Virus record (IMG/VR): IMGVR_UViG_3300030328_000966
Location: 1-44,097 of that record
Source of the DNA: a virus
Length of the DNA: 44,097 bases
Strand: one strand, 5' to 3'
Shown here: one piece after another, positions 5,412 through 43,118 of the stretch
Position numbering within the stretch: the first letter of the stretch is position 1
Layout: every line of letters begins with the position of its first letter
Notes under the pieces: generated by a model
The model's database searches: none
What the model saw: the letters and a program-made list of their open reading frames with translations, nothing else
Told to the model about the DNA's origin: nothing
Position numbers and translations under genes: made by a program

Positions 5412-7040
5412 ATGGCGATACAGTTTTTAAATGCAGTTGATGTTACTGGCGAGGTACAAGGTACTTCGCTAGACATCAATGGTGCTGCTGATATATCTGG
5501 TGTTTTAACACAAGGTGGTCATATTGAAATGGCTTCTGCTAAAAGAATAAGGTGGGGAGCTGGAGATGCTATGATTGCAGAAGGTATATCTGAAAATTAT
5601 GCTTTAGAGTTTTCAACATATAACGGTAGTTCTATGACAGAGGCTTTAAGGTTGAGTGGTGATAATTCTGCAACTTTTACAGGGTCTCTTACTATACCTG
5701 AATACATAGTTCACTCTGGTGATACTAATACTTATTTTGGTTTTAGCGCTGCAGATACATTTAAACTTCATGTTGGTGGCGAAGATGTTCTTAGAGTTAA
5801 TGGCGGCGCAACCACTGACGAAGCAGCGGTGACAATACTTTGTGGAGGTGGTACTAACGCAACTAACATAGGTTTGTTATTAAATGGTAACACAAATGGT
5901 GAGACTTTAAAGGTCAAAATGATGAACCCAAATGACAGTGGTAGTGTCACGGGTGCTGGTATACTTTCTTATGAACCAGATGGCGATACATTTAACATAG
6001 GCCAAAGCACAACTCACAACAACATGGCTATGTCTATTGATAACAGTGAAAATGTTACTTTTGCTGCTAATATAGGCGTAGGCGGAACAGTGCTTGGTAC
6101 CTCTGCTAAATTTGGTAGAGACGCAGATAATCTTATAGATTTTGCATCTACAGATAATCAAATAAGATTTAGAGTTAACGGAGGTGACGAAGCTAATATG
6201 ACTAATGCTTTTTTCTATCCTCACTCTAACGATGGTATGGCACTTGGTCAAGCGGCTACCGCATGGTCTGACCTTTTCTTGGCATCGGGTGCTGTTATTG
6301 GGTTTAATAATGGTGATGTTACGCTAACACATAGCTCTAATACTTTAACAGTTGCTGGTGGTACTCTTGCTACGGCTGCTTTGACTGCTACAACCGGTAC
6401 TTTTTCTGGCAATATTACTGCTAATGGTGATATTATTGGTGATGACGGTACTAATATAACTAATATAAACCGTATTGAATCAGACTCGTTCGCAGCAGAT
6501 GCTGATAACACAACTACAATTAATATGGGTGCTACTCAGATTGAATGTTTAGTTGCAGACACTGATATATTTCAAGTCGGCGAGGATTCATTTACTTTTG
6601 ATCCTGCAATAAAAACATCTATACATAAACGATTGTTTGCTAAAACGACAAATGTTGATGGTAACTTTGATGGTGATGTAGTTTTTTTTGGTAGTACAAC
6701 ATCAATGACTGCTGGTAAATTATATTATTATAATTCAAGTGGTAACTGGGCTTTGGCTGATGCTGATGCCGCTTCAACCTCTACTGGTTTATTAGGCGTA
6801 GCTTTGGGAACAGCCTCAGACACAAATGGTATGCTACTTAGAGGTATGGTCACTGTAAATACTATTGGAGGTACTGAAGCAGTTGGAGATATATTATATG
6901 TAGCTTTAGCTGCTGGTGATGTTACTAAAACAGTTCCTTCAGGTACTGGTGATATAGTAAGAGTTGTGGGATATTGTTTAGACGCTAATAACGGTCAAAT
7001 ATGGTTTAATCCTGACGGTGCGTTTGTAGAGATTGCGTAA
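5412..7040 (+). CDS. Tail fibre protein with beta-rich C-terminal head
   Basis: 542 residues opening with MAIQFLN, the same heptad as the 841-residue fibre apart from E to Q, so both probably dock to the virion in the same way. The body repeats fibre phrases such as 'DADNLIDFASTDNQIRFRV' and 'TLTVAGGTLATAALTATTG'. From about residue 400 a distinct domain ('GDVVFFGSTTSMTAGKLYYY', 'STGLLGVALGTASDTNGMLL', 'GDIVRVVGYCLD...QIWFNPDG') resembles a C-terminal head I remember in aquatic phage fibres. The stop overlaps the start of the methyltransferase (TAATG), tying expression of the two together. A function in adsorption is inferred. Confidence 0.75.
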   Translation: MAIQFLNAVDVTGEVQGTSLDINGAADISGVLTQGGHIEMASAKRIRWGAGDAMIAEGISENYALEFSTYNGSSMTEALRLSGDNSATFTGSLTIPEYIVHSGDTNTYFGFSAADTFKLHVGGEDVLRVNGGATTDEAAVTILCGGGTNATNIGLLLNGNTNGETLKVKMMNPNDSGSVTGAGILSYEPDGDTFNIGQSTTHNNMAMSIDNSENVTFAANIGVGGTVLGTSAKFGRDADNLIDFASTDNQIRFRVNGGDEANMTNAFFYPHSNDGMALGQAATAWSDLFLASGAVIGFNNGDVTLTHSSNTLTVAGGTLATAALTATTGTFSGNITANGDIIGDDGTNITNINRIESDSFAADADNTTTINMGATQIECLVADTDIFQVGEDSFTFDPAIKTSIHKRLFAKTTNVDGNFDGDVVFFGSTTSMTAGKLYYYNSSGNWALADADAASTSTGLLGVALGTASDTNGMLLRGMVTVNTIGGTEAVGDILYVALAAGDVTKTVPSGTGDIVRVVGYCLDANNGQIWFNPDGAFVEIA

Positions 7041-7621
7041 TGAGTTATAAAGATAAAACATTAATATTTGAATCTAATAAGATTTATTACAACGATGCTA
7101 ATAATAGTATTGAAATGGAAGTAATGATGGACTGGGAAGATGCTGTTATGAAAAAGTCTGCTGATTATGTTTGTGAAAATGGAGGAGATATATTAGAGAT
7201 AGGATTTGGTATGGGTATAGCCGCAAACTATATACAGGCAAATTCAATAAACTCTCATACTATAGTTGAAAACCACCCACAAATAATAGAAAAAGCAAAA
7301 GCTTGGGCTGCTGACAAATCTAACGTAACTATTATAGAAGACGATTGGAATACAGTTAAAGATAAAAGAAGAACAATTTGTTTAGCTACTTATGATGGTA
7401 TATTCTACGATACATTTGGGGATGAAAATATGGGTAATTTTAAAAGCTCTTTAGCTAATTTAGCTAATTCAGGTTGTAAAGTTACATGGTGGAACAGTCT
7501 TGCAAGTGAAAATAACTATTATAATATCACTGGTGTTACTTACGAGGCTATTACAGTAAACCCTCCACCTAATTGTTATTTTAATCACACTACTTATTAT
7601 CTACCTAAAAAAGAGTTTTAA
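7040..7621 (+). CDS. SAM-dependent N-methyltransferase, GAMT/RMT2-like
   Basis: 193 residues with a near-complete guanidinoacetate/arginine N-methyltransferase pattern: 'MDWEDAVM' (E33, matching the substrate-binding Glu of mammalian GAMT in 'RWETPYM'), SAM motif I 'ILEIGFGMGIAA' (51-62), motif II 'HTIVENHP' (73-80), a conserved Trp in 'EDDWNTV', and 'YDGIFYDTFGD' (118-128, with D124 matching the catalytic Asp of 'DGILYDTY'). These enzymes methylate guanidino nitrogens, either of guanidinoacetate or of protein arginine (delta-N position, yeast Rmt2). The gene overlaps the upstream fibre stop and abuts the downstream adhesin ATG, so the likely context is fibre production. Whether it modifies a virion arginine, a host protein or a metabolite is unknown. 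Confidence 0.85.
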   Translation: MSYKDKTLIFESNKIYYNDANNSIEMEVMMDWEDAVMKKSADYVCENGGDILEIGFGMGIAANYIQANSINSHTIVENHPQIIEKAKAWAADKSNVTIIEDDWNTVKDKRRTICLATYDGIFYDTFGDENMGNFKSSLANLANSGCKVTWWNSLASENNYYNITGVTYEAITVNPPPNCYFNHTTYYLPKKEF

Positions 7622-22500: not shown

Positions 22501-25500
22501 ATGGCTGAATTAAAACGTGACTTCTCGCAAGCGAAGATGAACAAGGATATGGACGAAAGAATCGTTGCTCCAGGTCAATATCGTGATGCGAATAATATTC
22601 AAATAGCAACTTCAGATGGCTCCAATGTTGGAACTGTTCAAAGCTTATTGGGTAATACAGAGGTTACAGAGAATGTTGTTCCGGCCGGGTTTTGTACTTG
22701 TGTTGGCGCTATTGAAGTTCCAGAAAAAGATTTAATATATTACTTTGTTTCTGGTTCAGGAAATCCTTGGGCTGGTACGAATAGTGGGGAAAGACCAGAT
22801 GTAGAAAAAGATTATATTATAGAATATGACACTATAAACAAAACACATCAATATGTGTTTGTAGATATATTTAGAGTTAAGGCCACTGTAGATGTAGACA
22901 CTCACGGTAGTGGCGAAAACTTTATTCAACTTGATTTTGGTGCGGCTACAAATACAAGTGGTATTAGAACAGGAATGCAAATTACTGGTGTATTTACAAA
23001 TAACTCAGGTGGGAATTGGACTGACAGGTATGGTACAGTTATTGCAAACGGGTCTACTCACAGTTTAAATGTTGATAGTCAAGTTTTTGTAACTGATGTT
23101 GTATATACTGGATCTTCTAATAAATGGAAAATATATCACGATTATAACTGGGGAGCTGGAGCAACTAATTTTCCAGTAAAAAATGGTGATGTTTTTTACT
23201 TTGTTGCAGAAGGAGGTGCTAATTGGTATGATGATGGTAGAACTTTACAGTTTGACCCAAGAATAAGATTAAACGCTATTAATTATCTAGACGATATGTT
23301 GTTTTGGACAGATGGACATACAGAGCCTAAGAAAATACATATTGGAAGAAGTAAAGCTGGTACTGGTGGTACTTTAATATCAAAAGGTTGGGATGATACT
23401 AACAAAAAAAGCCATGTTAATAACACTGGTATTAATCCAATACTGGCATCACGAAGCTTTACGCCAAGTGAAAACAATGCAAATTTCCATACTAGACTAA
23501 CTATATCTCAAGCCAACGTTGTTTTAAACTATAAATTAGCACTTGCTGCTAACAACTATCAAAGAGTAGATGTAACTAGAGAACATATTACAGTTGTAAA
23601 AAAATACCCTAAATTTCCTTTAAATCTAGAAATGTCTACTACATCGGCCGATAGGGTTCCAGATGGTAGTCTTACACCTAACAAAGTTAGTTCTCATATA
23701 GCGGATGCAAGTGGTGCTACTCTTTTAGTAGATTTTGTTGATAGTAGTGGTGATCCATTGCAAGTTAATGATACAATAAGTAATTATTACTTTAGCCATT
23801 TGGTTGATTTTAGAAGAGGAGATCAAATAATATTAACTAATGACCCTGGTGTTACATCTGGCAGTGATTGGGATGAAGACTTAACAATGGTTACATTGCT
23901 ATGTACATATTCTGAAGCTTCTATAAACAGTCCAAAAAAAGGTCCTTATAGTTTTTCAGTTGTATCAGTTGATGGAAATGTTCCCAACCTTGCGGAAAAA
24001 TGGTTTGCTAAATTAAAATCTCCAGAACCTTTATTTCAATTTAAATTCCCTAGATTTTCTTATAGATGGAAATTTGAAGATGGCGAGTACTCAGCCTTTG
24101 CGCCTTGGTCTAATGTAGCATTTTTACCTAGTGATTTTAATTATAAAGCAAAAGAAGGTTATAATACTGGTATGGTTAATAATATTAGACATTTATTATT
24201 AAAAGACTACTTTCACGAATTTGCTCTAGTACCAAGAGATGTTGTTGGTGTTGATTTATTATACAAAGAGGATGGTAAACCTACGGTATACACTGTTAAA
24301 TCTTTAAGCGAAAAAGATGACGCGCCAGAATGGCCAGACAGAACAAGCAATTTTAATAGAGGTAAGTTTAAAATAACAACAGAAATGATACATGCTGTTG
24401 TGCCTTCAAATCAAATATTAAGGCCCTGGGACAATGTTCCTAAGTCAGCTAGAGCACAAGAGATTACTGCTAATAGATTAATATATGGTAACTACAAACA
24501 AGGTTACAATATATCAAATCAAATTAAAATAGATGTTTCCACCGATCATAGCTATGCGGGAGCTGGTGGGCCTATGACTTCTATTAAAACATTAAGAAAC
24601 TATCAAGTTGGTATAACTTATTCAGACGAGTATGGTAGAGAGACACCAGTTCTTGTTCCAAAAGAAGATTCTACAGTAACATTGGGGAAAGAATGGTCAA
24701 CGTCTCAAAACGTGTTAAACGTAAGATTGTCACCAGACGTTAAAAATGTTATACCTCATTGGGCAAAATATTTAAAGTATTATGTTAAAGAAACTTCAAA
24801 TGAATATTATAACTTAACCCAAGACAGATGGTACAATGCTGAAGATGGTAATGTCTGGTTGTCGTTTCCATCTGCTGAAAGAAACAAAGTTGATGAAGAT
24901 ACATTTTTAATATTAAAAAACGAGCACGACGCGGATGTAGCCGTTACTGATGATAGTAGGTATAAGATTATTGCAATAGAAAATGAAGCTCCAAATTTTG
25001 TAAAAACTACATATAAATTTCATGGTTCTGCCACAACAACTAGTCAAGTAGGAACAACTCTTGCGGGCAACAGATCTATTTTAATTGATGATAGCGATTT
25101 CACAACTGGTTTTGGAACGAAATTTATGGAGGAGGTTTACTCAAAGATTGCCAGGGGAACACTTCATGCTAGAATTGTTGGAACGGTGGGCACTAACTCG
25201 CTAACATCAAAATGGGTTGGTGTTAGTAAAGTTATGGAATTTTCGGCTAATGAACATCAAGTTCTTCTTGACCAAAAGCTTCCAGAGGCAGACATGACCA
25301 GCCTTTTATCTGGTACAATAGCATATACTATAGAGTTACGTGAAAGCACTATTGAGAACAAACCAGAGTTTGATGGTAGGTTTTTCGTAAAAATCCTTAA
25401 AGACGCGGCTTTACAAGATCATATCATGAAAGTAGATCCAAGTGCTACTGATTTTATTGTAAAAAATTCTTTTGAATTTAGAAGTATATTACCACCAGGT

Positions 25501-28500
25501 AGTGGTAGTGTGGCAACTCCTTGGACTAGTAGTGGTTACAAACACCATTCAGTAACAACTCCAACCTCAGGTACACACACGTACAACACGAGTAACACTT
25601 GGAGTGCGTCAGGTGGTTTTGATGATGACAACAAGTTTGGATGGTGTGGTGGTAAGAGTGAAACTAAAGATTTTTGGCAAGCACACCCAGATGATGGGGT
25701 TTTCTTTATTGATGGCGCTGCTCATTCTGATGATGATATTAACTGGTCCACGGGACAATCTATTGAAGGTGACATGAACGGTTTACACAACTCACATCCA
25801 AATGGTAATAGTAGTGATGCAAGAGGGATAAAACTTAACACAAATAAAACTGCTCAAATTTGGTTTGGAGTAAGAGGTTGGGGTAATGATTGGATACAAA
25901 TAACAAAAGACTTTCATAAAGCAATGACAACTCCTGGAACTCTTTTTAGATTTAGAGACGATCCTAATGGTGTTGTGTATAAAGTAAAAGCATACAAAGG
26001 TAGAAAACAAGTTGGGAATTTTGTTAAAAGTACGTGGAGTTGTAATAGATGTAAATCAGGTACGGCTGGATGTAAAAGAGATATATTTAGTATAACATTT
26101 ACACGATTAGATGGTACTGCGCCTGGGACGGTTAGTGGTCAAGCGAACACTGGTGTTATTGATTATAATGATTGGGATCCGTTAAGCACTGTTATGCACG
26201 ATGGGAGTACTAAATCAGAAATAGATATCCTTGAAATAGATAATTCTGCTTCTGAAAACCCATCAACTCTTTCTACAAATGAACCAGCTATATGGGAAAC
26301 AGAACCTAAAGAAGATGTTGGTTTAGATATATATTACGAGGCATCTGGAGCGATACCATTAAAGGTTACTCACAAAGATAACGAACTTCTAATACCGCCT
26401 GGATCTACATTTAGAGCAAGAAGTTCTAGTGGTTGGCACTCAACAGATACAACAAAAGGGTTTGACGGAACATATAAAGTTTATTCTGTTAATTCAACCG
26501 GTAATCCAGACACCACATATTTAACCTTTAATCCTAGACTAGTAGAAGATGTTAATCATGATAGTTATATAGAAGTTACTAGATATGATGGTAGTAAGAT
26601 AAGCTTGTATGTTGGAAAAAGTTCTGGTAATTATACTGATACAGCTATAACAGGTTCAATTAACGCAACGGCTAGTACAACTGTTACTGGTGTTGGAACG
26701 GCGTTTACTACAGAGGTTGCCGTGGGTGATAGACTTGTTCTTTACGATGGGACAAATCCTGCTGAGACTAGGAAGGTAACTGCTATTAATAGTAACACTG
26801 AATTGATAGTTGATAGTGCTTATACAAATCTAGGCAACGACACTAGTCCAGTAATTCAAAATACTCGTACTATAGAAATAATGACGGGTAACGAACCAAG
26901 AAATCTGGTGTCAAATGCAATTCAGCGTTATAGAGCTCCTCATCACCAACCATTAAGATTAGGTTGGCACAACTGTTGGAGATTTGGAAATGGTGTTGAA
27001 TCTGATAGAGTTAGAGATGACTACAACGCTGCTCAAGTAGCAAACGGTGTTAAAGCTTCCACTGTGATGGCAACACCTTATGCTGAAGAACACAAAAGTT
27101 CTGGGCTAATATTCTCTGGTATATTTAATTCAACAAGCGGTGTTAACGATCTAAATCAATTTATACAAGCAGAACCTATAACAAAAGATTTAAATCCTAG
27201 ACATGGTACTATTCAAGCCTTAGTGACTAGAGACACAAACACGGTGGTATTCTGCGAAGATAAGGTTCTTTCTGTATTAACAAATAAAGACGCTTTATTT
27301 AATGCTGATGGGAACGCAAATGTTACTTCAAACGCGGCTGTTTTAGGACAAGCTGTACCAATGTCTGGTGAGTATGGAATATCTACAAACCCTGAGTCTT
27401 TAGCTGTAACAGCAAATCACATTTACTTTTGTGATGCGTTGAGAGGTCAGGTTTTACAACTTACAGGTAACACTATAACACCGATATCAGAAATTGGTAT
27501 GAAAGATTGGTTTAATGATAACCTAAGGAATATTTCTCAAGCCGTTGGTAGTTATGACGATCATAAAGAAGAGTATAACTTAACGCTAAACTCTGTTTAT
27601 GCTAGAAATCAATATCGTCAAGATCATGATTACACTATTAGTTTTAATTCAAAAACAATGGGTTGGACTAGCTTTAAAGATTTTTATAAAGTTGATGCTT
27701 CTGGTTTAGAGTTTGGTATAAGTTTAAATAATAGGTACTACACATGGTATCAAGGTAGCATGTGGGAGCATCATACTAATACAACTAACACTAATTTTTA
27801 CGGGGATCAGTATTATTCAGATATAACTACTATATTTAATGATCAACCTGGTTCTGTTAAAAGTTTTGGAACTTTAAATTACGAAGGTTCTCAGGCTAGA
27901 ATAACACAATACACAGATTCAAGTGTTACAAATGCTTCTGGTGATACTTTATCTAATTTAAATGATTCTGAATATTACAACTTAACAGCTAAGACTGGTT
28001 GGTACGTAGATAGTATAACAACAGATCTTCAAGAAACAGAAAATCTTGAATTTAGAAGCAAAGAAAATAAGTGGTTTAGCACTATTAAAGGAGTAACTAC
28101 ATATTTTACATCTAATAGTGATAATAATTTAGATGAAAGAGAGTTTTCTGTTCAAGGTCTTGGAAACGCTACAATATCAGCAACTAGTCCTAGAAGCGCT
28201 CCATTTAAACTATATGTTCAGCCTGGAACAACTAATGCTGCTAACTCAGTTAATTGGGATAGCACTGCTGATAGTACAAAATGGAGAATAGTTCAAGCTG
28301 CCGCAACAAACCCAACTTACCATGTTGAAACAACTACAGTGGCTGCTGGTTATAGAGATTGTGAAATAGATAATTTAGAAACAGTAAATGGTAATCTCGT
28401 TTCTTCTGGATTTAATCTTAGTGCTGAAGACTTTGAGGTTCCTGGTGGAACAGTTACTACTAGCGGTACTGGTTGGGCTACAACTTATATATATACTGCG

Positions 28501-28776
28501 GCTGCTGGTTGGAATGCTGATACCACTTTTAGTAGTGGAAGCACTGTGGCTACTTCTGGTGGGGGTATTTGGAAAGTAGAGTTTAGCAATATAGGTAATC
28601 AAGGTCCTAGTAATAAGGTTAGGGTTAGAATCTATTTTGTAACACTTACAATGCCTTCTAATGATGTAACTTACAATGTTGATATTGACGTTAAATCAAG
28701 CGTTCATCTGCCACCTGCAGCACCACCAGTACAACAATATTACAATACTAACGTTGTAGTTAGTTATTATCCATAA
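22501..28776 (+). CDS. Giant tail nozzle / stabilisation protein
   Basis: 2091 residues, starting 14 bases after the ring protein. The N-terminus 'DFSQAKMNKDMDERIVAPGQ' followed by 'YRDANNIQIATSDGSNVGTV' is the recurrent opening of large tail stabilisation (nozzle/muzzle) proteins in crAss-like and other aquatic podoviruses. The body is nearly all beta, with propeller-like strands such as 'DLIYYFVSGSG', 'LDDMLFWTDG' and, near 27400-27500, 'SLAVTANHIYFCDALRGQVL'. A small barrel at about 26641-26880 ('TASTTVTGVGTAFTTEVAVG') is an insertion module common in phage virion proteins. A Cys cluster (C1181, C1184, C1191) stands out. The length exceeds that of T7 gp12-like nozzles more than twofold because of insertions. 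Confidence 0.75.
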   Translation: MAELKRDFSQAKMNKDMDERIVAPGQYRDANNIQIATSDGSNVGTVQSLLGNTEVTENVVPAGFCTCVGAIEVPEKDLIYYFVSGSGNPWAGTNSGERPDVEKDYIIEYDTINKTHQYVFVDIFRVKATVDVDTHGSGENFIQLDFGAATNTSGIRTGMQITGVFTNNSGGNWTDRYGTVIANGSTHSLNVDSQVFVTDVVYTGSSNKWKIYHDYNWGAGATNFPVKNGDVFYFVAEGGANWYDDGRTLQFDPRIRLNAINYLDDMLFWTDGHTEPKKIHIGRSKAGTGGTLISKGWDDTNKKSHVNNTGINPILASRSFTPSENNANFHTRLTISQANVVLNYKLALAANNYQRVDVTREHITVVKKYPKFPLNLEMSTTSADRVPDGSLTPNKVSSHIADASGATLLVDFVDSSGDPLQVNDTISNYYFSHLVDFRRGDQIILTNDPGVTSGSDWDEDLTMVTLLCTYSEASINSPKKGPYSFSVVSVDGNVPNLAEKWFAKLKSPEPLFQFKFPRFSYRWKFEDGEYSAFAPWSNVAFLPSDFNYKAKEGYNTGMVNNIRHLLLKDYFHEFALVPRDVVGVDLLYKEDGKPTVYTVKSLSEKDDAPEWPDRTSNFNRGKFKITTEMIHAVVPSNQILRPWDNVPKSARAQEITANRLIYGNYKQGYNISNQIKIDVSTDHSYAGAGGPMTSIKTLRNYQVGITYSDEYGRETPVLVPKEDSTVTLGKEWSTSQNVLNVRLSPDVKNVIPHWAKYLKYYVKETSNEYYNLTQDRWYNAEDGNVWLSFPSAERNKVDEDTFLILKNEHDADVAVTDDSRYKIIAIENEAPNFVKTTYKFHGSATTTSQVGTTLAGNRSILIDDSDFTTGFGTKFMEEVYSKIARGTLHARIVGTVGTNSLTSKWVGVSKVMEFSANEHQVLLDQKLPEADMTSLLSGTIAYTIELRESTIENKPEFDGRFFVKILKDAALQDHIMKVDPSATDFIVKNSFEFRSILPPGSGSVATPWTSSGYKHHSVTTPTSGTHTYNTSNTWSASGGFDDDNKFGWCGGKSETKDFWQAHPDDGVFFIDGAAHSDDDINWSTGQSIEGDMNGLHNSHPNGNSSDARGIKLNTNKTAQIWFGVRGWGNDWIQITKDFHKAMTTPGTLFRFRDDPNGVVYKVKAYKGRKQVGNFVKSTWSCNRCKSGTAGCKRDIFSITFTRLDGTAPGTVSGQANTGVIDYNDWDPLSTVMHDGSTKSEIDILEIDNSASENPSTLSTNEPAIWETEPKEDVGLDIYYEASGAIPLKVTHKDNELLIPPGSTFRARSSSGWHSTDTTKGFDGTYKVYSVNSTGNPDTTYLTFNPRLVEDVNHDSYIEVTRYDGSKISLYVGKSSGNYTDTAITGSINATASTTVTGVGTAFTTEVAVGDRLVLYDGTNPAETRKVTAINSNTELIVDSAYTNLGNDTSPVIQNTRTIEIMTGNEPRNLVSNAIQRYRAPHHQPLRLGWHNCWRFGNGVESDRVRDDYNAAQVANGVKASTVMATPYAEEHKSSGLIFSGIFNSTSGVNDLNQFIQAEPITKDLNPRHGTIQALVTRDTNTVVFCEDKVLSVLTNKDALFNADGNANVTSNAAVLGQAVPMSGEYGISTNPESLAVTANHIYFCDALRGQVLQLTGNTITPISEIGMKDWFNDNLRNISQAVGSYDDHKEEYNLTLNSVYARNQYRQDHDYTISFNSKTMGWTSFKDFYKVDASGLEFGISLNNRYYTWYQGSMWEHHTNTTNTNFYGDQYYSDITTIFNDQPGSVKSFGTLNYEGSQARITQYTDSSVTNASGDTLSNLNDSEYYNLTAKTGWYVDSITTDLQETENLEFRSKENKWFSTIKGVTTYFTSNSDNNLDEREFSVQGLGNATISATSPRSAPFKLYVQPGTTNAANSVNWDSTADSTKWRIVQAAATNPTYHVETTTVAAGYRDCEIDNLETVNGNLVSSGFNLSAEDFEVPGGTVTTSGTGWATTYIYTAAAGWNADTTFSSGSTVATSGGGIWKVEFSNIGNQGPSNKVRVRIYFVTLTMPSNDVTYNVDIDVKSSVHLPPAAPPVQQYYNTNVVVSYYP

Positions 28777-32752: not shown

Positions 32753-35700
32753 ATGAGTGAATTAGAGGCTATTCTTAAAAATTTAATGGAACAAAACCCT
32801 AATGTTACACAAGAAACTGTAGATGGTGTAATAAAAGAGTATGATGAGCAAAACAAAAAGCTTAGTTTTATACCTGACACTATTGTTGCGGAAACAACTC
32901 GTAATACAGATAGTAATATAGTTATACCTGAAATTATACAAGGGCAAGATGAAACATCTGAAGATGGGTCTGATCCCTTTGAAATACTAGAGAAAGAAGA
33001 AAGAAAAGAAGCAAGAATACAAAGAGATTTATCAAGAATGAACCTTCAGGTTATTCCAGGTCAAGGTGTAGTTGATCTAAATCAGGGAAAAGAGGATTTA
33101 AAAGAGATAATAAAAAACAATCCTGTAGGATCTACAAAACATCTAGAAGCTACAAAAAGGTTAAATGAAGTTAGAAAACAAGATTATAATAATAGTTTTT
33201 CAACACAAGATTATAAGACTGTTGAAGAAATTATAAAAAATGCAGAGACTAGCGGTCAAATAGATCTTACTGCTCCAACAAAAAAAGACGAACTTGATAA
33301 GCTAGTGGCAGAAAGAGGTGATTATACTGTTAGTAATTACATGGGCCAAAGTGTTTATACTTTTGCAGATGGAACCACTATTAACGACGCAATGCTACCT
33401 TCAGATGACCCTGATGCAAAAACTGACCATTTAGTAAATTATGAAGGCATTAGAGGTCTTGACGCTCAACAAAAACAAAGAATTAAAGATTTTACCACAG
33501 TAGGACCTGCTGGTCACAGCAAACTTGATATTTATAGAAAAGCTATTGCAAACATGAAGATTGACAAGCCAGTTGCTGGATATGGTCAATTTGAAGAGCG
33601 TGATGTTAATCTAAGTGAGTTTGAAGACTGGCAACTATTAGATGGTTTAGACTTTCAACAAATACAGCAATTTGCTGGTATTAGTTATGAAAAAGGTGCT
33701 TTTGGAAGAGGAGATGATGTTATCGAAAAAGATTCTTTTCAAAAGAAAGCCCATATAGATAAGCTAGCAGGAAAAAAATATAGACTAGAAAACGAGATTA
33801 TTAACGAGGAGCGTAATGATGTGCTTGATGATATTGATACTCATAATGAAAATACTGAAAATGTTTTATTAAAAGGTGAAGGATTAAAATCAAGAGTAGA
33901 AAAATCTAACACTGTCATTGCTCCAGTAGCAGAAAAATATGAAAAAGCTGTTGCAGATATAGAGGCTTCAAATACCAATGTTAAAAAGTTAGAGGAAGAG
34001 TTAAATAGCATTCCAAGACCTACAAAAAAAGGTTTATATTCACACCCAGCACACGTAAGTTCTTACAACAAAGCCGTTACTAATTATCAAGCAGCGGTTA
34101 CAAATCACAATTCCCTTATTACAAAAAACAAACCTTTGTTTGATGAGTACGGTTCTTTAATAAAAGAACAAGAAGCATTAATAGCAGAGTCAGATCAATA
34201 TAACGAAGAGTTAGGTAGTCTTAATAGAACTCAAGAAGATCTTAATAATAAACTAGGTGAACTAGAAATAAAAAGAAAAGCTTCACAAGACAGATACGGA
34301 TTCACGGTTGCCGATGGTATATTAAAAAATGATAAAGAAAGGTTTACAAATATAAAAGCATACGAAAACTGGAGAAAAACAAACTTAATAGAAAACAGTA
34401 TATTTGACAAAGACGCTTGGCTTTCTTTTGGGCAAGGAATGGGGAAAACATGGGGTAAAATGTACACTGGTGGACAACTGTTCGCGTTAAGAGGTCTTGA
34501 CGCTATTACTGGTGGTGCTTTTAGTAGAGGTGATCAATACACGAATTTAGATTACATGCAAGATATGTATGAAAAATTTTCAAGCTACGATCTTGCGGGC
34601 GTGGCAACAGATGAGGATTACGGAGAAGGTGGGCCGTCAGGAATTAATTATGCTACTAAAGTAGTAGCTGAAGGACTTCCGTTTATGTTAGCTATAGCTA
34701 ATGGACCCGGTCTTGTGTCAGGCACATCGAAACTAGCTAGTGGTATAAACATGTCTACTACAGGTTTTCAATTAACGTCTATGGACAATGTTATTGAGGG
34801 TGAAAAAATGGGTTTAAGCGAAACTCAAGCAACGTTATATGGTGGTATTATAGGTACAACTATTGGTTTAACTCAGTTAATAATGCCTGATTCTCAAATT
34901 TTACAAGGTACTGGTATAAACGAAATTGCAAAAAAAGGTTTAGCAGATATATTTAAAAGAGGTCTTAGTAAGCAGGCAACTAAATTTGCTGTTGGTAATT
35001 GGTTTAAAAGAAACGTTGGGGAAATGTTTGAGGAACAGGTTGAAGCTGGTATGGAGCATTTAGCAAAAAAAGCTTTTAACTTATCTCATGAAAGTGATTT
35101 TTTAAGCTGGAAAACACATCAAAAATTAATTGCTGATACTTGGACACTTACTGGTATAACTGGTCTTAGTGGTTCTACAGCAGACTTTAACAATTTTAGA
35201 AGCAATGCTTTTACACAGTTAAAAGGAGATGTTAACCCAATGATAACTCAAATAAACGAGCAAGTTGGAGCAATTCAAAAAAAGATTAACAAAGCCGAAA
35301 GAATCAAGGATGGGGCAGCTATTAAAAAATATACTGATTTAAAAAACGATTTACTTAAGTCAAAGGAATATGTTACTAATTTTAAAAACGCTTTAAACGT
35401 TGCTCCAGAAAATGTATCAGACCAACAGCTAGAAGATCTTACTGAAAAAATGAGGTTGCTTGAGTTAAAAAAGAATCAAGACCCTGCTTTTCATGCTGGT
35501 ATAGACTTACAGATTAAAAACATTAATGAAAAAATAGAAAATTCTGTAGTTGAACAAACAGCTAAAGAAACAAACGACAAACTTTATAAACAAACATTAG
35601 CAACTGTTACAACACTAGCCGAAGGCCAAGGTGACAAAGTTCAAGAGTTTGAAAACGACAAAGAAGTAAATAAATATTTAGAGGATAATGGTTTAAAATC

Positions 35701-38700
35701 TAAGTTTGAAAAAACTACATATGGTGGTTTTGTAGATATAGCTGCTAAAGATAGTGATGGTAATATTATAAAAGACGAAAATGGTAAAACAAAATTTGTA
35801 AAAACATTAATAATAAACAAACAAGCTTCTCAAAAAGGTGAAGGTGTTAATGTTGCATCACATGAATTTTTACATCGAGTTTTACAAACTACTTTTGCTC
35901 AAAAAGACGCTGATGGCAAACCGATGCTTGATGAAAACGGTGATATAATTATTGATAAAAAAGCTGCTATTGGTATTGGTCAATCATTAGGTAAATGGAT
36001 AAGCGAAATACAAGGAGATGATTTTTCAAATAGTAAATTGCTAGAAAGACTTCAAACATCTTATTCTGGAGAGTTAAACAACGTGCAAGCCCAAGAAGTT
36101 TTAACATTGTTATCAGACTCTATAGTTACAGGAGACTTAAAGTTTGAAGAAAATGTATTTACCAAACTAGGAGATGTAATGAGAAGAGGTTTGCAAGCCG
36201 CGGGATTTGCAGACATTAAATTTAACACAGCTAAAGATGTTTATAATTTTGTTAAAGACTACAACGCATCTATAGCGGCTGGTGGTTTAAATCAAGCTCA
36301 GCAAAAATTAATGAAAGAAGGTGCTAAAATAGGTGGTAAAATAGCACAAACAATAGACAGTGATACTATAGACCAATTAGCAAAAGAAGACGATTTACAG
36401 GAAAAATTAAATTTGTTAAAAGAAAAAAATATTGATCCAGACTCTGTAGATGGTAAAGCTTTATTAGCTTCTAAAGCAAGTGACGTTGCAGGTTTATTAA
36501 GTAAATTTGATGGGCCAAAAGATATGATTTCTAGAACTCTTATGCAAACCAAAGATGGTCAACAAGTCATGGATTTAAAAAACAACAATGGAGATTATGT
36601 TAAAAATCCATTTGTGAGATCTGAGTTTGGTCAAGAAATAGCACCAATAACAGAAACTATTACTAAAAGATTATTTGATCCTATACCTGAAAACTTAAGA
36701 TCTGGTGTTACTAGAGCTGAGTTTATGAATGAACTTACATCGATGGCTGCTGGTTTAGTTGAAACTGAATACGATGCTAGTAAACAAGATATTGATAAGT
36801 TTATAAGTAATAGATTAAATTTAAGAGCAAATAAATTAGCTAGTGACTTAGGTATAGAATCAACTGTTGAAGAAGGTGGTTTAGGAGCGGCTGTTGGTCT
36901 AGATCAAGCAGCAGAGTTAACAGCTGAAGAAACTGGACCTATAAATGAAAACACACCAGCATCTGTATTAGTTGATAGATTAGCTACAACTGAACAAAAA
37001 CAAAATATAGAAAAAGCTATTCAATCTAAAATAAAAGGTAATACTATAGAGGTTGAACCAGGTAAGTTTACAGATATATCTAACTTAAACTATAAAACTT
37101 TAAAAAATCTAGTAGCACCTGAGGTTGCTAGTATGTTTGGTATTGAGGCTGTTGAAAATTATACATCACCTACTAAAACGTTAAAAAATGATGACGTTGT
37201 TAGAGCTAGAATGTTTATAGGTAAAAATGCAGATATAATATATAACTCGCTACCAAAAGGTGTTACAGCGTCAGGAACAGCAACTGGATTAAAACAAGTA
37301 ATAGCTAAAAACTTTTATACAAAAAGTGATACTAGAGTTAAGTATGATCCTAAAGAAGGTGGCGCTGGTATATTTCCTCAGATAAAAAATAAAATGACAG
37401 GTAAAGAGTTTGCCGCTGTATTTGGTTATGAAAAAGGTAAACTTACAAGTGTTAAAGGTCAAAATCCAGCTACACTAATATCAGGATTAATGGACGAGGT
37501 TGGTAAAACTATAACTAACCAAACAGTAAGACAACAGCTAGATAAAATGAATACAGCTGGTGACAAAGAAGTTGCTGCTCGTATAAAATTACTAGGAGAT
37601 GGTAAGTCAGATGTTATGTTTAGTCAAGCAGCTTTATCAAAACTATCACCAGAACAACATATTACGTTTTTAGACAAGGCAACTAATATAAACGCTAAAA
37701 TGATTAACGCTGCTGATGGTAACATGACAAACGTTTTAAATACTCACTTTGCTGATGACATTAAAAATGGTACTTATGATATTGGTAAGCAATCAACAGA
37801 ACAACTTATAAATAAAGTAGGTAAAACTTTACAAGGTATATACGATGGTATGACTGATGGTAAAAGTTTACCACCAGACTTTGTTTTTGATGGCAATAAA
37901 ATTGCCGACATGGTTATAGATCAGTTTGTAAATGAAAACATTGAGAATGAGCTTAAAAGCTACGAATCAATAGCTGGTGAAAAAATTCAAGGATTGACTA
38001 CTGTAGAGGGTATTATATCAGCTAGAAATGCTGCTGTAAAGCTTAGTAATAGATTTGCAAAAAAGAAAGGTAAGGCGTGGGTTAAGAAATTTATAGCACC
38101 TGGTTTAAGTGCTTCTGCTAGAGCAGGTAGGGGTGAGTTTGTGTTTAAGCCTGGTACAATGGAGTATAAAATTGACAAAGCTAAACGAAAGTCAAGAAAT
38201 AGATTTGGGTTAGGTAATGCAGCTGATATAGGCGCTTTATTAGGTGTTACTGATATTAAAATTACTAATAGTTACAACACTGGAGATGTTAAAGCTCACG
38301 AAGGTAAATTAACAGTTATACCAAGCCAAAGCAATTTAACTAATATTGTAAAAGAAAACCAAGAAGCTAACCAAGCTTATAGAGATTTTGTTGCAGAGTT
38401 AAAAGATATGTATGACAATAAAGAAATATCTAAAAGTGATGTTGTTGCTTTATTACAAGCTATGAACTCTAACCCTAGAGGCTTAACAAGAACAGCTGCT
38501 ATATTAGATTTTATTCCAGATGGTAAATTTGATGGTAAGCTTAGACTCGAACACATGACGCCAGCCTTACAAGTAAACTTAAACGCCTTAAACCATATTT
38601 TAAACGGCACTCCTGAAACAGATCAAAACTTTAAAGATATAATGGATGGTTACAAAGCAGCTTATTTGCCTATTAAGTATGACAACATGGTTAACAAGTT

Positions 38701-41674
38701 ATACAAATCTACACTGCCAATATATGCTGATCCAAAAACACCTAGCGTAGTAAGATATTATAATCCTGAAATGCCATTGTTTGATTTAGTAATGAAACAA
38801 TTATCTACTGGTAATAAAATAGGTCAAGACTTTGTGTTTAGCTCAAAGCAACAAGCTGAAATGAGAAAGAATAATACTAAAGCCGTTAAAGGTAACAAGT
38901 TATATTTCTCAAAAGCATCAGACTCAAACGCTGAGATAAACAGAAAAAATACTATTATAGACAGAGCTATAAAACAAGCTAGATTAGTAACAGATCCAAG
39001 AGGTATAACAGTATTAGACTTTGATGATACACTAGCTACAACTGAGTCGTTAGTTAAATTTACAAAACCAGATGGAACTACAGGAACATTAAATGCCGAG
39101 CAATATGCTAGTACATATCAAGATTTATTAGACCAAGGATATACATTTGACTTTTCTGAATTTAACAAAGTAGTAAAAGGTAAAATAGCACCTTTATTTC
39201 AAAAAGCATTAAAGCTACAAGGTAAGTTTGGTCCTGATAATATGTTTGTATTAACAGCGAGACCACCAGCTGCTCAAAAAGCTATATTTGATTTCTTAAA
39301 AGCTAATGGTTTAAATATACCTATGGATAATATAACTGGGCTTGCTAACTCAACTTCTGAAGCAAAAGCCTTATGGGTTGCTGACAAAGTTGGTGATGGT
39401 TATAATGACTTTTATTTTGCTGACGATGCTTTACAAAATGTACAAGCTGTTAAAAACATGTTAGATCAATTTGATGTTAAGTCAAAAGTACAACAAGCAA
39501 AAACAGTTTTATTTAGCAAGGCTTCTGATAATTTTAATGCTATAATAGAAGATGTTAAAGGTGTTAATAGGTTTGCTGAGTTTTCAGATGCTAAGGCACA
39601 AAAGAGAGGTGCTGACAAAGGTAAGTGGAATATATTTATACCTGCTTCTGCAGAAGATTTTAAAGGTTTACTTTACAACTTTTTAGGTAAAGGTAAAAAA
39701 GGTGAAGGTCATATGAAGTTTTTTGAAGATGCTTTAATAAATCCATTTTCAAGAGCAATAAGAGAGTTAGATGGGCAAAAAGCTAGAATATCAAGAGACT
39801 ATAAGTCTTTATTAAAAATGCTACCAGAAGCTAAAAAGATTTTAGACAAAACAATACCTGAAGGTGACTTTACATATGATACGGCTGTTAGGGTTTACAA
39901 CTGGGTTAAAAACGATTATGATATAAAAGGCTTATCAAAATCAGATAAAGCAAACTTAATAAAAGCTGTAGAAAATAATCCTTCTTTGTTGGCTTATGCT
40001 GAAGGATTAGAAAGCGTAACAAAAGGTTATCCAGAACCAGGAGACTTTTGGATGACGGAAACTACACTTTCTGACCTAAACAATATGACAGAAGGTATGA
40101 GTAGAAAAGAAGCTTTAGCTGAGTTTATACAAAATAGAGAACAAATATTTGGTGAGTGGCAGAACGGCAAGTTAGTTGGTGCTAACATGAATAAAATAGA
40201 AGCTATATACGGTACTAGATTTAGAGAAGCTTTAACTGATATGTTATGGCGTATGGAGAATGGTACTAATAGAGCTTTTGGTAATAACAGGTTGACTAAT
40301 AGATTTGCTAATTGGGTTAACAATTCTGTAGGTGCTATCATGTTCTTTAATATGAGATCAGCTGCATTACAGACACTTTCTACTGTTAACTTTATAAACT
40401 GGAGTGATAACAATGTACTGGCTGCTGGTAAAGCTTTTGCTAATCAAAAACAGTATTGGAAAGATTTTGCAGAGTTATTTAATTCTGACATGTTAAAACA
40501 GAGGAGATCTGGTTTAAAAACATCTGTAAGTCACTCTGAGTTAGCCGAAGCTGCTTCTGGTTCTAAAGGATCACCTAAAGCAGTTTTTCAACATATGTTA
40601 CGTTTAGGTTTCTTACCTACACAAATTGCGGATAGTTTTGCTATTGCAGCCGGTGGTGCTACTTTTTTTAGAAATAGAATTAATAAGTATGTAAAAGATG
40701 GTATGTCCGAAACTGAAGCTAAGAAACAAGCGTTTAACGATTTCCAACAAATAGCTGAAGAAACTCAACAGTCATCTAGACCTGATATGATTTCACAGCA
40801 ACAAGCGTCGCCTCTAGGTAGACTTATACTTGCTTTTCAAAATACACCAATGCAATATACTAGATTAACTAAAAAAGCTATACTAGATTTAGTTAATGGT
40901 AGAGGAGACGCTAAGACACATGTATCTAAAATACTTTATTATGGGGCTGCGCAAAACTTAATATTCTCTTCTTTGCAGAAAGCAATGTTCGCGGCTATGT
41001 TTGACGACGAAGATGATGAAGAAGCTAAAAAGAAACAAGCTAAAAAAGAAAAGTCTTTATTAAATAGTATGTTAGATTCTACGCTAAGAGGTATGGGAGT
41101 TGGTGGTGCAATTGTTTCTACGGCTAAAAATATGATTATTAAGTTTTTAGAAGAAGATCAAAAAGGGTGGAATGCAGACTTTGATAAGGTTATAGTAGAA
41201 TTCTTAAATCTATCACCACCTGTTGGATCTAAAGTTAGAAAACTAAAATCAGGTTTTAGTACATATCAATTTAACAAAGAGGTTATAGATTATATGCCTA
41301 AAAACGATATTGACAATCCTATGTGGGAAACTATTGGTAATGTTGTTTCTTCAACTACAAACGTTCCTATGGATAGATTAGTTAATAAAACAAACAACGT
41401 TCGTGAGGCTTTTAATAATCAAAACGAGACTTGGCAAAGAATAGCTATGTTAATGGGTTGGAATAGATGGGATGTAGGCGTTGAAAAAACAAGAGTTAAA
41501 CAAGCGAAAGAAGAAATAAAAGCCAAAAAAGAAGCTGAGAAAAAAGCTAAACAAAAAAAGAAAAGAAAAGAAGAAGCTAAAAAGAGAGTTCAGTGTTCTG
41601 CTACTAAAAAAAGAGGTGGTAGATGTGGCAACAAAACTTCTAATAAAAACGGAAAATGTTATGCTCATCAGTAA
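32753..41674 (+). CDS. Giant multidomain virion-associated protein (2973 residues) with metallopeptidase-like and HAD-like parts
   Basis: In order: charged helical region (1-390); coiled coil about 390-500; hydrophobic segments about 640-665 and 695-712; coiled coil about 840-960; HEFLH (1037-1041) in 'VASHEFLHRVLQTTF', a zinc-peptidase-like HExxH; 'FISNRLNLRANKLASDLG'; the motif MFSQA (F1623); LYFSKASD (F2052); a HAD phosphatase-like domain with DFDDT (2089-2093), TARPP (2168-2172), K2205 and ADD (2223-2225); VLFSKASD (F2254); a region at 40240-41000 ('WRMENGTNRAFGNNRL', 'GAIMFFNMRSAALQTLSTVN', 'QQSSRPDMISQQQASPLGRL') that I recall from giant proteins of aquatic phages; a Lys-rich helix; and C2948, C2958, C2969, H2972. 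It resembles 'polyvalent' proteins injected with phage DNA. Location after internal virion genes supports that. No RNA polymerase or lytic domain is evident. Confidence 0.8.
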   Translation: MSELEAILKNLMEQNPNVTQETVDGVIKEYDEQNKKLSFIPDTIVAETTRNTDSNIVIPEIIQGQDETSEDGSDPFEILEKEERKEARIQRDLSRMNLQVIPGQGVVDLNQGKEDLKEIIKNNPVGSTKHLEATKRLNEVRKQDYNNSFSTQDYKTVEEIIKNAETSGQIDLTAPTKKDELDKLVAERGDYTVSNYMGQSVYTFADGTTINDAMLPSDDPDAKTDHLVNYEGIRGLDAQQKQRIKDFTTVGPAGHSKLDIYRKAIANMKIDKPVAGYGQFEERDVNLSEFEDWQLLDGLDFQQIQQFAGISYEKGAFGRGDDVIEKDSFQKKAHIDKLAGKKYRLENEIINEERNDVLDDIDTHNENTENVLLKGEGLKSRVEKSNTVIAPVAEKYEKAVADIEASNTNVKKLEEELNSIPRPTKKGLYSHPAHVSSYNKAVTNYQAAVTNHNSLITKNKPLFDEYGSLIKEQEALIAESDQYNEELGSLNRTQEDLNNKLGELEIKRKASQDRYGFTVADGILKNDKERFTNIKAYENWRKTNLIENSIFDKDAWLSFGQGMGKTWGKMYTGGQLFALRGLDAITGGAFSRGDQYTNLDYMQDMYEKFSSYDLAGVATDEDYGEGGPSGINYATKVVAEGLPFMLAIANGPGLVSGTSKLASGINMSTTGFQLTSMDNVIEGEKMGLSETQATLYGGIIGTTIGLTQLIMPDSQILQGTGINEIAKKGLADIFKRGLSKQATKFAVGNWFKRNVGEMFEEQVEAGMEHLAKKAFNLSHESDFLSWKTHQKLIADTWTLTGITGLSGSTADFNNFRSNAFTQLKGDVNPMITQINEQVGAIQKKINKAERIKDGAAIKKYTDLKNDLLKSKEYVTNFKNALNVAPENVSDQQLEDLTEKMRLLELKKNQDPAFHAGIDLQIKNINEKIENSVVEQTAKETNDKLYKQTLATVTTLAEGQGDKVQEFENDKEVNKYLEDNGLKSKFEKTTYGGFVDIAAKDSDGNIIKDENGKTKFVKTLIINKQASQKGEGVNVASHEFLHRVLQTTFAQKDADGKPMLDENGDIIIDKKAAIGIGQSLGKWISEIQGDDFSNSKLLERLQTSYSGELNNVQAQEVLTLLSDSIVTGDLKFEENVFTKLGDVMRRGLQAAGFADIKFNTAKDVYNFVKDYNASIAAGGLNQAQQKLMKEGAKIGGKIAQTIDSDTIDQLAKEDDLQEKLNLLKEKNIDPDSVDGKALLASKASDVAGLLSKFDGPKDMISRTLMQTKDGQQVMDLKNNNGDYVKNPFVRSEFGQEIAPITETITKRLFDPIPENLRSGVTRAEFMNELTSMAAGLVETEYDASKQDIDKFISNRLNLRANKLASDLGIESTVEEGGLGAAVGLDQAAELTAEETGPINENTPASVLVDRLATTEQKQNIEKAIQSKIKGNTIEVEPGKFTDISNLNYKTLKNLVAPEVASMFGIEAVENYTSPTKTLKNDDVVRARMFIGKNADIIYNSLPKGVTASGTATGLKQVIAKNFYTKSDTRVKYDPKEGGAGIFPQIKNKMTGKEFAAVFGYEKGKLTSVKGQNPATLISGLMDEVGKTITNQTVRQQLDKMNTAGDKEVAARIKLLGDGKSDVMFSQAALSKLSPEQHITFLDKATNINAKMINAADGNMTNVLNTHFADDIKNGTYDIGKQSTEQLINKVGKTLQGIYDGMTDGKSLPPDFVFDGNKIADMVIDQFVNENIENELKSYESIAGEKIQGLTTVEGIISARNAAVKLSNRFAKKKGKAWVKKFIAPGLSASARAGRGEFVFKPGTMEYKIDKAKRKSRNRFGLGNAADIGALLGVTDIKITNSYNTGDVKAHEGKLTVIPSQSNLTNIVKENQEANQAYRDFVAELKDMYDNKEISKSDVVALLQAMNSNPRGLTRTAAILDFIPDGKFDGKLRLEHMTPALQVNLNALNHILNGTPETDQNFKDIMDGYKAAYLPIKYDNMVNKLYKSTLPIYADPKTPSVVRYYNPEMPLFDLVMKQLSTGNKIGQDFVFSSKQQAEMRKNNTKAVKGNKLYFSKASDSNAEINRKNTIIDRAIKQARLVTDPRGITVLDFDDTLATTESLVKFTKPDGTTGTLNAEQYASTYQDLLDQGYTFDFSEFNKVVKGKIAPLFQKALKLQGKFGPDNMFVLTARPPAAQKAIFDFLKANGLNIPMDNITGLANSTSEAKALWVADKVGDGYNDFYFADDALQNVQAVKNMLDQFDVKSKVQQAKTVLFSKASDNFNAIIEDVKGVNRFAEFSDAKAQKRGADKGKWNIFIPASAEDFKGLLYNFLGKGKKGEGHMKFFEDALINPFSRAIRELDGQKARISRDYKSLLKMLPEAKKILDKTIPEGDFTYDTAVRVYNWVKNDYDIKGLSKSDKANLIKAVENNPSLLAYAEGLESVTKGYPEPGDFWMTETTLSDLNNMTEGMSRKEALAEFIQNREQIFGEWQNGKLVGANMNKIEAIYGTRFREALTDMLWRMENGTNRAFGNNRLTNRFANWVNNSVGAIMFFNMRSAALQTLSTVNFINWSDNNVLAAGKAFANQKQYWKDFAELFNSDMLKQRRSGLKTSVSHSELAEAASGSKGSPKAVFQHMLRLGFLPTQIADSFAIAAGGATFFRNRINKYVKDGMSETEAKKQAFNDFQQIAEETQQSSRPDMISQQQASPLGRLILAFQNTPMQYTRLTKKAILDLVNGRGDAKTHVSKILYYGAAQNLIFSSLQKAMFAAMFDDEDDEEAKKKQAKKEKSLLNSMLDSTLRGMGVGGAIVSTAKNMIIKFLEEDQKGWNADFDKVIVEFLNLSPPVGSKVRKLKSGFSTYQFNKEVIDYMPKNDIDNPMWETIGNVVSSTTNVPMDRLVNKTNNVREAFNNQNETWQRIAMLMGWNRWDVGVEKTRVKQAKEEIKAKKEAEKKAKQKKKRKEEAKKRVQCSATKKRGGRCGNKTSNKNGKCYAHQ
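38900..39529 (+). other. HAD-like cassette bracketed by FSKASD repeats (inside the giant gene)
   Basis: Residues about 2050-2259. Both edges carry [LV]-[YL]-FSKASD followed by an Asn/Ala/Ile-rich start of a new segment. The intervening 200 residues hold the complete set of HAD motifs: nucleophile D2089 and acid/base D2091 in DFDDT, T2168 in TARPP, K2205 and D2224/D2225. A third, looser copy (MFSQA) begins the segment near residue 1623. The layout looks like an exchangeable domain set between processing or docking motifs. Confidence 0.7.
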
Positions 41675-42758: not shown

Positions 42759-43118
42759 ATGTATCAATATAAAATAAAGCTCGATAGAGTTATTGATGGT
42801 GATACTATAGATTGTTATATTGATCTAGGTTTTGACATTAACACGAAGAAAAGAATTAGATTTGCTGGTATTAATACTCCAGAATCTAGAACAAGAGATC
42901 TTGAGGAGAAAAAAAGAGGTTTAGCTGCTAAAGCTAGATTAACAGAAATATTAGAAGAGGCAAGTGAGATACATCTTGATTCTCATGGTCTTGGTAAGTA
43001 TGGTAGAGTTTTAGGCGAGCTAAGTGTTAGCAGCGATAACTCTATTACAATGGTAAACGTAAATGAATTATTAATTAAAGAAGGCCATGCTGTAGAATAT
43101 CATGGCGGTAAACGTTAA
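42759..43118 (+). CDS. Staphylococcal-nuclease-fold protein (thermonuclease homologue)
   Basis: 119 residues with the SNase core: 'KLDRVIDGDTIDCYIDLGF' (D13, D15), 'RIRFAGINTPES' (R34, E42 matching R35 and E43 of the staphylococcal enzyme) and 'KYGRVLGEL' (R83 matching R87). The equivalent of D40 is Asn39, a change also common in active homologues. It has no signal peptide, so it acts inside the cell or virion. SNases degrade DNA or RNA with calcium; phage homologues might degrade host or competitor DNA. The start lies one base after the barrel gene, and the end overlaps an upstream in-frame ATG option of the next gene. Confidence 0.88.
   Translation: MYQYKIKLDRVIDGDTIDCYIDLGFDINTKKRIRFAGINTPESRTRDLEEKKRGLAAKARLTEILEEASEIHLDSHGLGKYGRVLGELSVSSDNSITMVNVNELLIKEGHAVEYHGGKR

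Follow-up and report, generated by a model that had tools for sequence, protein, structure and literature searches.

What does a short peptide motif do when it recurs at the edges of an enzyme domain inside a very large viral protein? The question is raised by IMG/VR record IMGVR_UViG_3300030328_000966, a 44,097-base stretch from an uncultured virus that is here called the window. One gene (32753-41674, on the + strand, as are all features of it given below) encodes a giant polyvalent ejection-type protein of 2973 residues, roughly 330 kDa, as judged from its open reading frame (ORF), its translation and its relatives in viral contigs. A sequence-only reading had proposed that two near-identical FSKASD motifs flanking a HAD phosphatase domain in this protein mark proteolytic processing, docking, or the joints at which domains are swapped between phages. 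The general joint motif is [K/M][FY]S[KR][S/A]; its role as a domain-swap joint is supported at the protein level, and it is very probably under protein-level selection. That it is also a cleavage site is a prediction to which we give somewhat less than even chances.

In the giant protein, the HAD motif set is complete (DFDDT at 2089, TARP at 2168, K2205, D2224/D2225), and FSKASD flanks it at joint J2, (LY)FSKASD with F2052 (38906-38923), and at joint J3, (VL)FSKASD with F2254 (39512-39529), where the HAD domain meets a C-terminal block. The looser MFSQA lies at joint J1, (VM)FSQA with F1623 (37619-37630), and HEFLH starts at residue 1037, so that all of these motifs stand where they had been reported. 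FS[KRQ]A occurs four times in the protein, while 5,000 shuffles gave none in 4,484 cases, one in 487, two in 29 and never three. Not one of the six codons is shared by the FSKASD copies TTCTCAAAAGCATCAGAC and TTTAGCAAGGCTTCTGAT; their likeness has therefore been kept at the protein level and does not reflect a recent DNA duplication. Two further FSxA sites, missed by the sequence-only reading, were ruled out as joints on the basis of AlphaFold confidence (predicted local distance difference test, pLDDT) and conservation. FSDA at F2277 (39581-39592) is a conserved [FY]S of the folded C-terminal block ([FY] in 62/63 and S in 59/63 sequences; pLDDT about 89), and FSRA at F2332 (39746-39757) lies within a confident helix (pLDDT about 92) and its serine is unconserved.

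The joints themselves sit outside confident folds. An AlphaFold model of residues 2030-2912 (63 sequences, mean pLDDT 81) placed F2052 in a disordered linker (pLDDT <50) and F2254 at the short gap that separates the HAD domain from the helix after it (pLDDT about 70). In a second model (residues 985-1660, 57 sequences), a folded domain spanning residues 1406-1621 (36968-37615; pLDDT mostly 77-97) ends at J1. Its confident part stops at about residues 1617-1621 and F1623 opens a low-confidence tail, although low confidence past residue 1626 is partly a lack of data because the alignment rows stop there. None of the three joints was thus found within a confident fold, the position that the sequence-only reading had named as telling against it. 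By composition, the motif flanks were no more disorder-prone than control flanks.

Relatives of the giant protein are encoded by 154 viral-contig stretches, 80 loci of which were fetched and analyzed; no convincing relative was found in cultured phages among DNA neighbours or by tblastn. Ends of high-scoring segment pairs, sequence pairs and relatives are non-independent observations throughout. Among 66 non-redundant N-terminal parts, FS[KR][SADT] occurred 46 times where 12 were expected, KFSK 21 times where 3.9 were, and the reversed SF[KR] was not enriched. C-terminal ends of pairwise homology fell within 25 residues of FS[KR][SADT] 38 times, compared with 11.8 expected (reached in 0/300 permutations), and no significant clustering of homology ends was seen for four control motifs. 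Identity dropped from 0.42 in the 10 residues before the motif to 0.15 in the 10 after it (47 motif-keeping pairs at 27 sites, which are not independent), a fall absent from control motifs (before/after: LS 0.54/0.53, FT 0.40/0.46, IS 0.62/0.72). Around the HAD domain, 36 of 77 relatives carry [FY]S[KR] at most 52 residues upstream (chance 3.4% per protein), most commonly as AVKFS[KR]S, and 45 of 77 carry it at most 40 residues downstream (chance 2.6% per protein). The motif terminates different domain classes. The FSKA copies that first drew attention are instances of a broader form, [FY]S[KR], and the restriction to FSKA did not hold.

What lies between joints is exchanged. The stretch from J1 to J2 (residues 1627-2051; 37631-38905) is a variable cassette whose counterparts in relatives are non-homologous or separately exchanged, and among 20 selected relatives in which the first joint is clear, 16 have the second as well, with about 330-470 residues in between. 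L005 and L046 share upstream modules at 65% identity and have unrelated cassettes; L005 and L021, conversely, have unrelated upstream modules and cassettes that are 39% identical over 319 residues. L041 and L070 share 60% upstream, and their cassettes have no detectable similarity. Because cassettes and upstream modules are exchanged independently, modules are replaced as units between motif copies. Homologue alignment, which had been proposed as a check, accordingly shows domains that differ between motifs that persist, and together with the homology ends, the drop in identity and the bracketing of the HAD domain it bears out the suggestion that the motif marks domain borders where modules swap. 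The cassettes of the window and of L005, L021, L041 and L046 gave no convincing Pfam or PHROG match; they form a pool of unassigned, possibly delivered domains.

The modules so delimited include two catalytic domains in one polypeptide, each with a conserved catalytic set. The HAD phosphatase domain (residues 2074-2250; 38972-39502) shows motifs I-IV, with DFD[D/E]T, T-A-R, K and DD invariant in 62-63 of 63 aligned relatives. It matched Pfam DUF2608 (PF11019; E 3.9e-5, above its cut-off) and PHROG 415 polynucleotide kinase (E 3.4e-4; 7.5e-9 for the relative L041). It shares HAD motifs with these polynucleotide kinase-type and DUF2608 proteins but is embedded in a giant protein, and its profile retrieved no sequence match from the PDB. 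Foldseek comparison of the HAD/C-terminal model with PDB folds gave weak matches only, HAD structures among them. The second domain, at about residues 1000-1200 (35750-36352), is a predicted zincin-like metallopeptidase (MPTase): HEFLH (1037-1041) is followed by a downstream Glu, E1115, the HExxH-plus-Glu pattern of zincins. H1037, E1038, H1041 and E1115 are the sole invariant columns among 57 aligned relatives, of which only E1115 is an independent observation because the rows were picked for HExxH. HE..H is present 61 times in the 66 non-redundant N-terminal parts; the model containing the zincin and J1 matched no PDB fold.

The HAD domain and the conserved helical C-terminal block (residues 2260-2910; 39530-41482) are the best-conserved region of the family. 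In AlphaFold and BFVD comparisons, the block resembles the C-termini of ART-PolyVal/LPD/MuF phage proteins (BFVD E 1e-13 to 1e-5, probability 1.00). With the phage polyvalent proteins described by Iyer et al. (PMC5512222), the window protein shares very large multidomain size, modular exchange and a zincin MPTase alongside an effector-like enzyme domain, as well as the LPD/ART-PolyVal/MuF fold class of the C-terminal block. It differs in lacking a Pfam LPD or MPTase sequence match: sequence models for LPD, MPTase-PolyVal and PLxRFG did not match, nor does any Pfam or NCBIfam family match the giant protein. The fold matches and the conserved zincin residues agree with the polyvalent nature first suggested from sequence; since the protein is polyvalent-type by fold and make-up, we do not claim membership of the Pfam/NCBIfam families LPD, MPTase or PLxRFG. 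It ends in a zinc-knuckle-like tail, CxxxxKxxGxRC...CxxH (41585-41671; CSATKKRGGRCGNKTSNKNGKCYAHQ), similar to tails in 18 of 81 family proteins and perhaps a nucleic-acid-binding end.

Beyond this family, we scanned 26 other polyvalent giants, from the archaeal virus MetMV, Pseudomonas phage Rollin, a Vibrio phage, and Burkholderia and Bacteroides phages, and including proteobacterial and plasmid LPD38/LPD1/PLxRFG proteins. [KRM]FS[KR] occurred 11 times against 2.8 expected, and near homology borders 13 times at starts (2.4 expected) and 6 times at ends (1.9 expected), counts that include repeat matches per site. The scan that the sequence-only reading had suggested thus found an enrichment in other giants that falls clearly short of the one in the home family, and several of them had no motif at all. 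Carriers include Vibrio phage 252E42.2 (RNDVMFSKEVAEP), Rollin (DPKFSKLQ) and Methanosarcina virus MetMV (QPMFSRSDN). MFSKE opens the C-terminal block of a Vibrio phage giant, and the zincin is followed by KFSKL in Rollin and by KFSRI in L355. Many zincins in these giants have the HExxxH form, which was also described by Iyer et al. (PMC5512222). As a separate observation, the gammaproteobacterial LPD38 giant L105 carries a zincin-like HExxxH domain (residues 3747-3982) between RFSRS and MFSRH, mirroring the bracketed HAD domain. An unbiased viral-contig scan found KFSKS in 4 ORFs of at least 1,500 residues out of 61, all four with HExxH, compared with 0 of 37 for the scrambled KSFKS; none of the length differences tested reached significance, and single-protein scans for other polyvalent families returned 0, 1 and 0 loci. 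No earlier description of the motif was found in the literature, supplements being outside reach. The main text of Iyer et al. contains no FSR, and the accessible passages of PMC5512222 describe no recurring inter-domain motif.

The evidence shows a mosaic polyvalent-type protein with a seam motif; the further reading that we favor, while putting it just below an even bet, gives this motif a processing role. The seams separate the zincin, an accessory domain, the variable cassette, the HAD phosphatase and the helical C-terminal block, modules that are traded whole between phages. The giant protein would be a virion component that is delivered to the host, and the motif would persist since an enzyme or partner recognizes it in exposed linkers. 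Its most likely use would be as a processing site that frees modules in a polyprotein-like manner, before or after ejection, the cut being made by the resident zincin, in cis or in trans, or by another protease. A processing site is suggested because a recurring motif is found in exposed linkers between domains, at enzyme seams, with signs of protein-level selection and beside a conserved peptidase. In 2017, Iyer et al. proposed that zincins carry out autoproteolysis of the polyvalent proteins that contain them (PMC5512222). The virion-associated anti-restriction proteins DdrB and DarA of the P1 darA operon were both reported, in the same paper, to be proteolytically processed, DdrB bearing a zincin.

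Several points weigh against this reading. Homology starts, unlike ends, do not cluster at the motif in the N-terminal parts of the family, and [FY]S[KR] is missing ahead of the HAD domain in about half of the relatives. Among known systems, the cutting of DarA is ascribed to Pro, the prohead protease (PMC12810830), and P1 DdrB, DarA and Hdf contain no FS[KR]; the N4 virion RNA polymerase, which bears a zincin, is packaged uncut according to PMC5512222. In L042 the first zincin His is lost (LEELFH) and FSK is kept at all three joints; L061 has likewise lost this His and kept FSKD, a less clear case. Loss of the motif together with an inactive zincin was not seen, with two cases only to judge from. 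The giants of L042 and L061 are otherwise intact.

In the strongest alternative, the joint is never cut and serves as a docking or packaging tag, or as a linker for storing, threading and refolding modules during ejection, with no protease involved. Taken by itself, this is possible rather than probable; set against cleavage, an uncleaved docking or threading joint is almost as likely. The presence of the motif in seam linkers suits it, as do its retention in L042 with a degenerate zincin, the uncut N4 polymerase, and the crassvirus cargo proteins, which are thought to cross the tail partly unfolded (PMC10172136). It has no known binding partner or receptor, and nothing positive sets it apart from cleavage.

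It is improbable, in our judgment, that the motif is an inherited tail of little function, which would consist of the terminal residues conserved in a few families of modules and mark where the folded sequence stops. The codons lend this some weight: the serine codon block (AGY or TCN) of the motif agrees between relatives at 0.81, compared with 0.83 at other aligned serines and 0.52 by chance, so the motif descends with its upstream module. Both serine codon types are in use, however, and the motif also stands before the HAD domain, behind cassettes of different ancestry, behind different domain classes and in other polyvalent families. Recombination at the DNA level, with the sequence that encodes the motif serving as microhomology or as a target for cassette exchange, is very unlikely. 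It would account for homology breaking at the motif, and the motif serine codon is identical between relatives at 0.64, compared with 0.39 at other aligned serines. However, identity is not raised at the F and K codons of the motif, FS[KR] is encoded by 25 different 9-mers, and the FSKASD copies of the window share no codon; as the serine block follows descent and F and K show no excess, there is no sign of a DNA target site apart from this mild serine excess. Meaningless chance similarity is less credible still: neighbouring genes, too, hold more bare FS[KR][SADT] than expected (24 against 8.6, with a few conserved families contributing much of this), but KFSK and [FY]S[KR] are not raised there (ratios 0.79 and 0.98), and the counts, the placement, the homology cliff and the bracketing of HAD domain and cassettes speak against chance. 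For the same reason, the enrichment of bare FS[KR][SADT] was dropped as sole evidence, and KFSK together with motif placement was kept.

Under the mosaic reading with its seam motif, the protein bears on how giant phage proteins bring many enzymes through the tail, and on whether those enzymes act joined or separate. The seam motif predicts the exact places of cutting or docking and allows unannotated giant phage proteins to be split into modules. Unlikely on present evidence, yet of wider consequence, is a joint code, [K/M][FY]S[KR][S/A], that polyvalent ejection proteins would share and that the embedded zincin or a partner would cut, by which inserted enzymes would become host-delivered effectors: a plug-and-play polyprotein in viruses whose hosts span several bacterial phyla and include an archaeon. 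If it were true, any enzyme set between two motif copies would become a released effector.

The surroundings of the giant gene appear, from profile matches, to be crass-type. The structural genes in the window include one with a muzzle C-terminal domain (PF25729, E 4.3e-7), a portal (PHROG 6547) and TerL (PHROG 6681), the taxonomic range of these PHROGs being unchecked. The giant gene resembles those of the crassvirus cargo and virion RNA polymerase proteins (PhiCrAss001 gp45-gp50; PMC10172136) in adjoining what appear to be crass-type muzzle, portal and terminase genes; it differs in having no detectable sequence relation to database phages, and a cargo role here is a candidate only. Among its relatives, L082-L092 lie on contigs binned with metagenome-assembled genomes of Maricaulis, Aliivibrio, Woesearchaeota, Ilumatobacteraceae and Bacteroidota, a binning that is probably unreliable for host because these genomes are so diverse. 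The muzzle-type protein (22501-28776) is unusually long at 2,091 residues and carries the crassvirus muzzle C-terminal domain. A 193-residue gene at 7040-7621 gave a weak RrnaAD/methyltransferase match, and a small staphylococcal-nuclease-like gene (42759-43118) lies shortly 3' of the giant gene.

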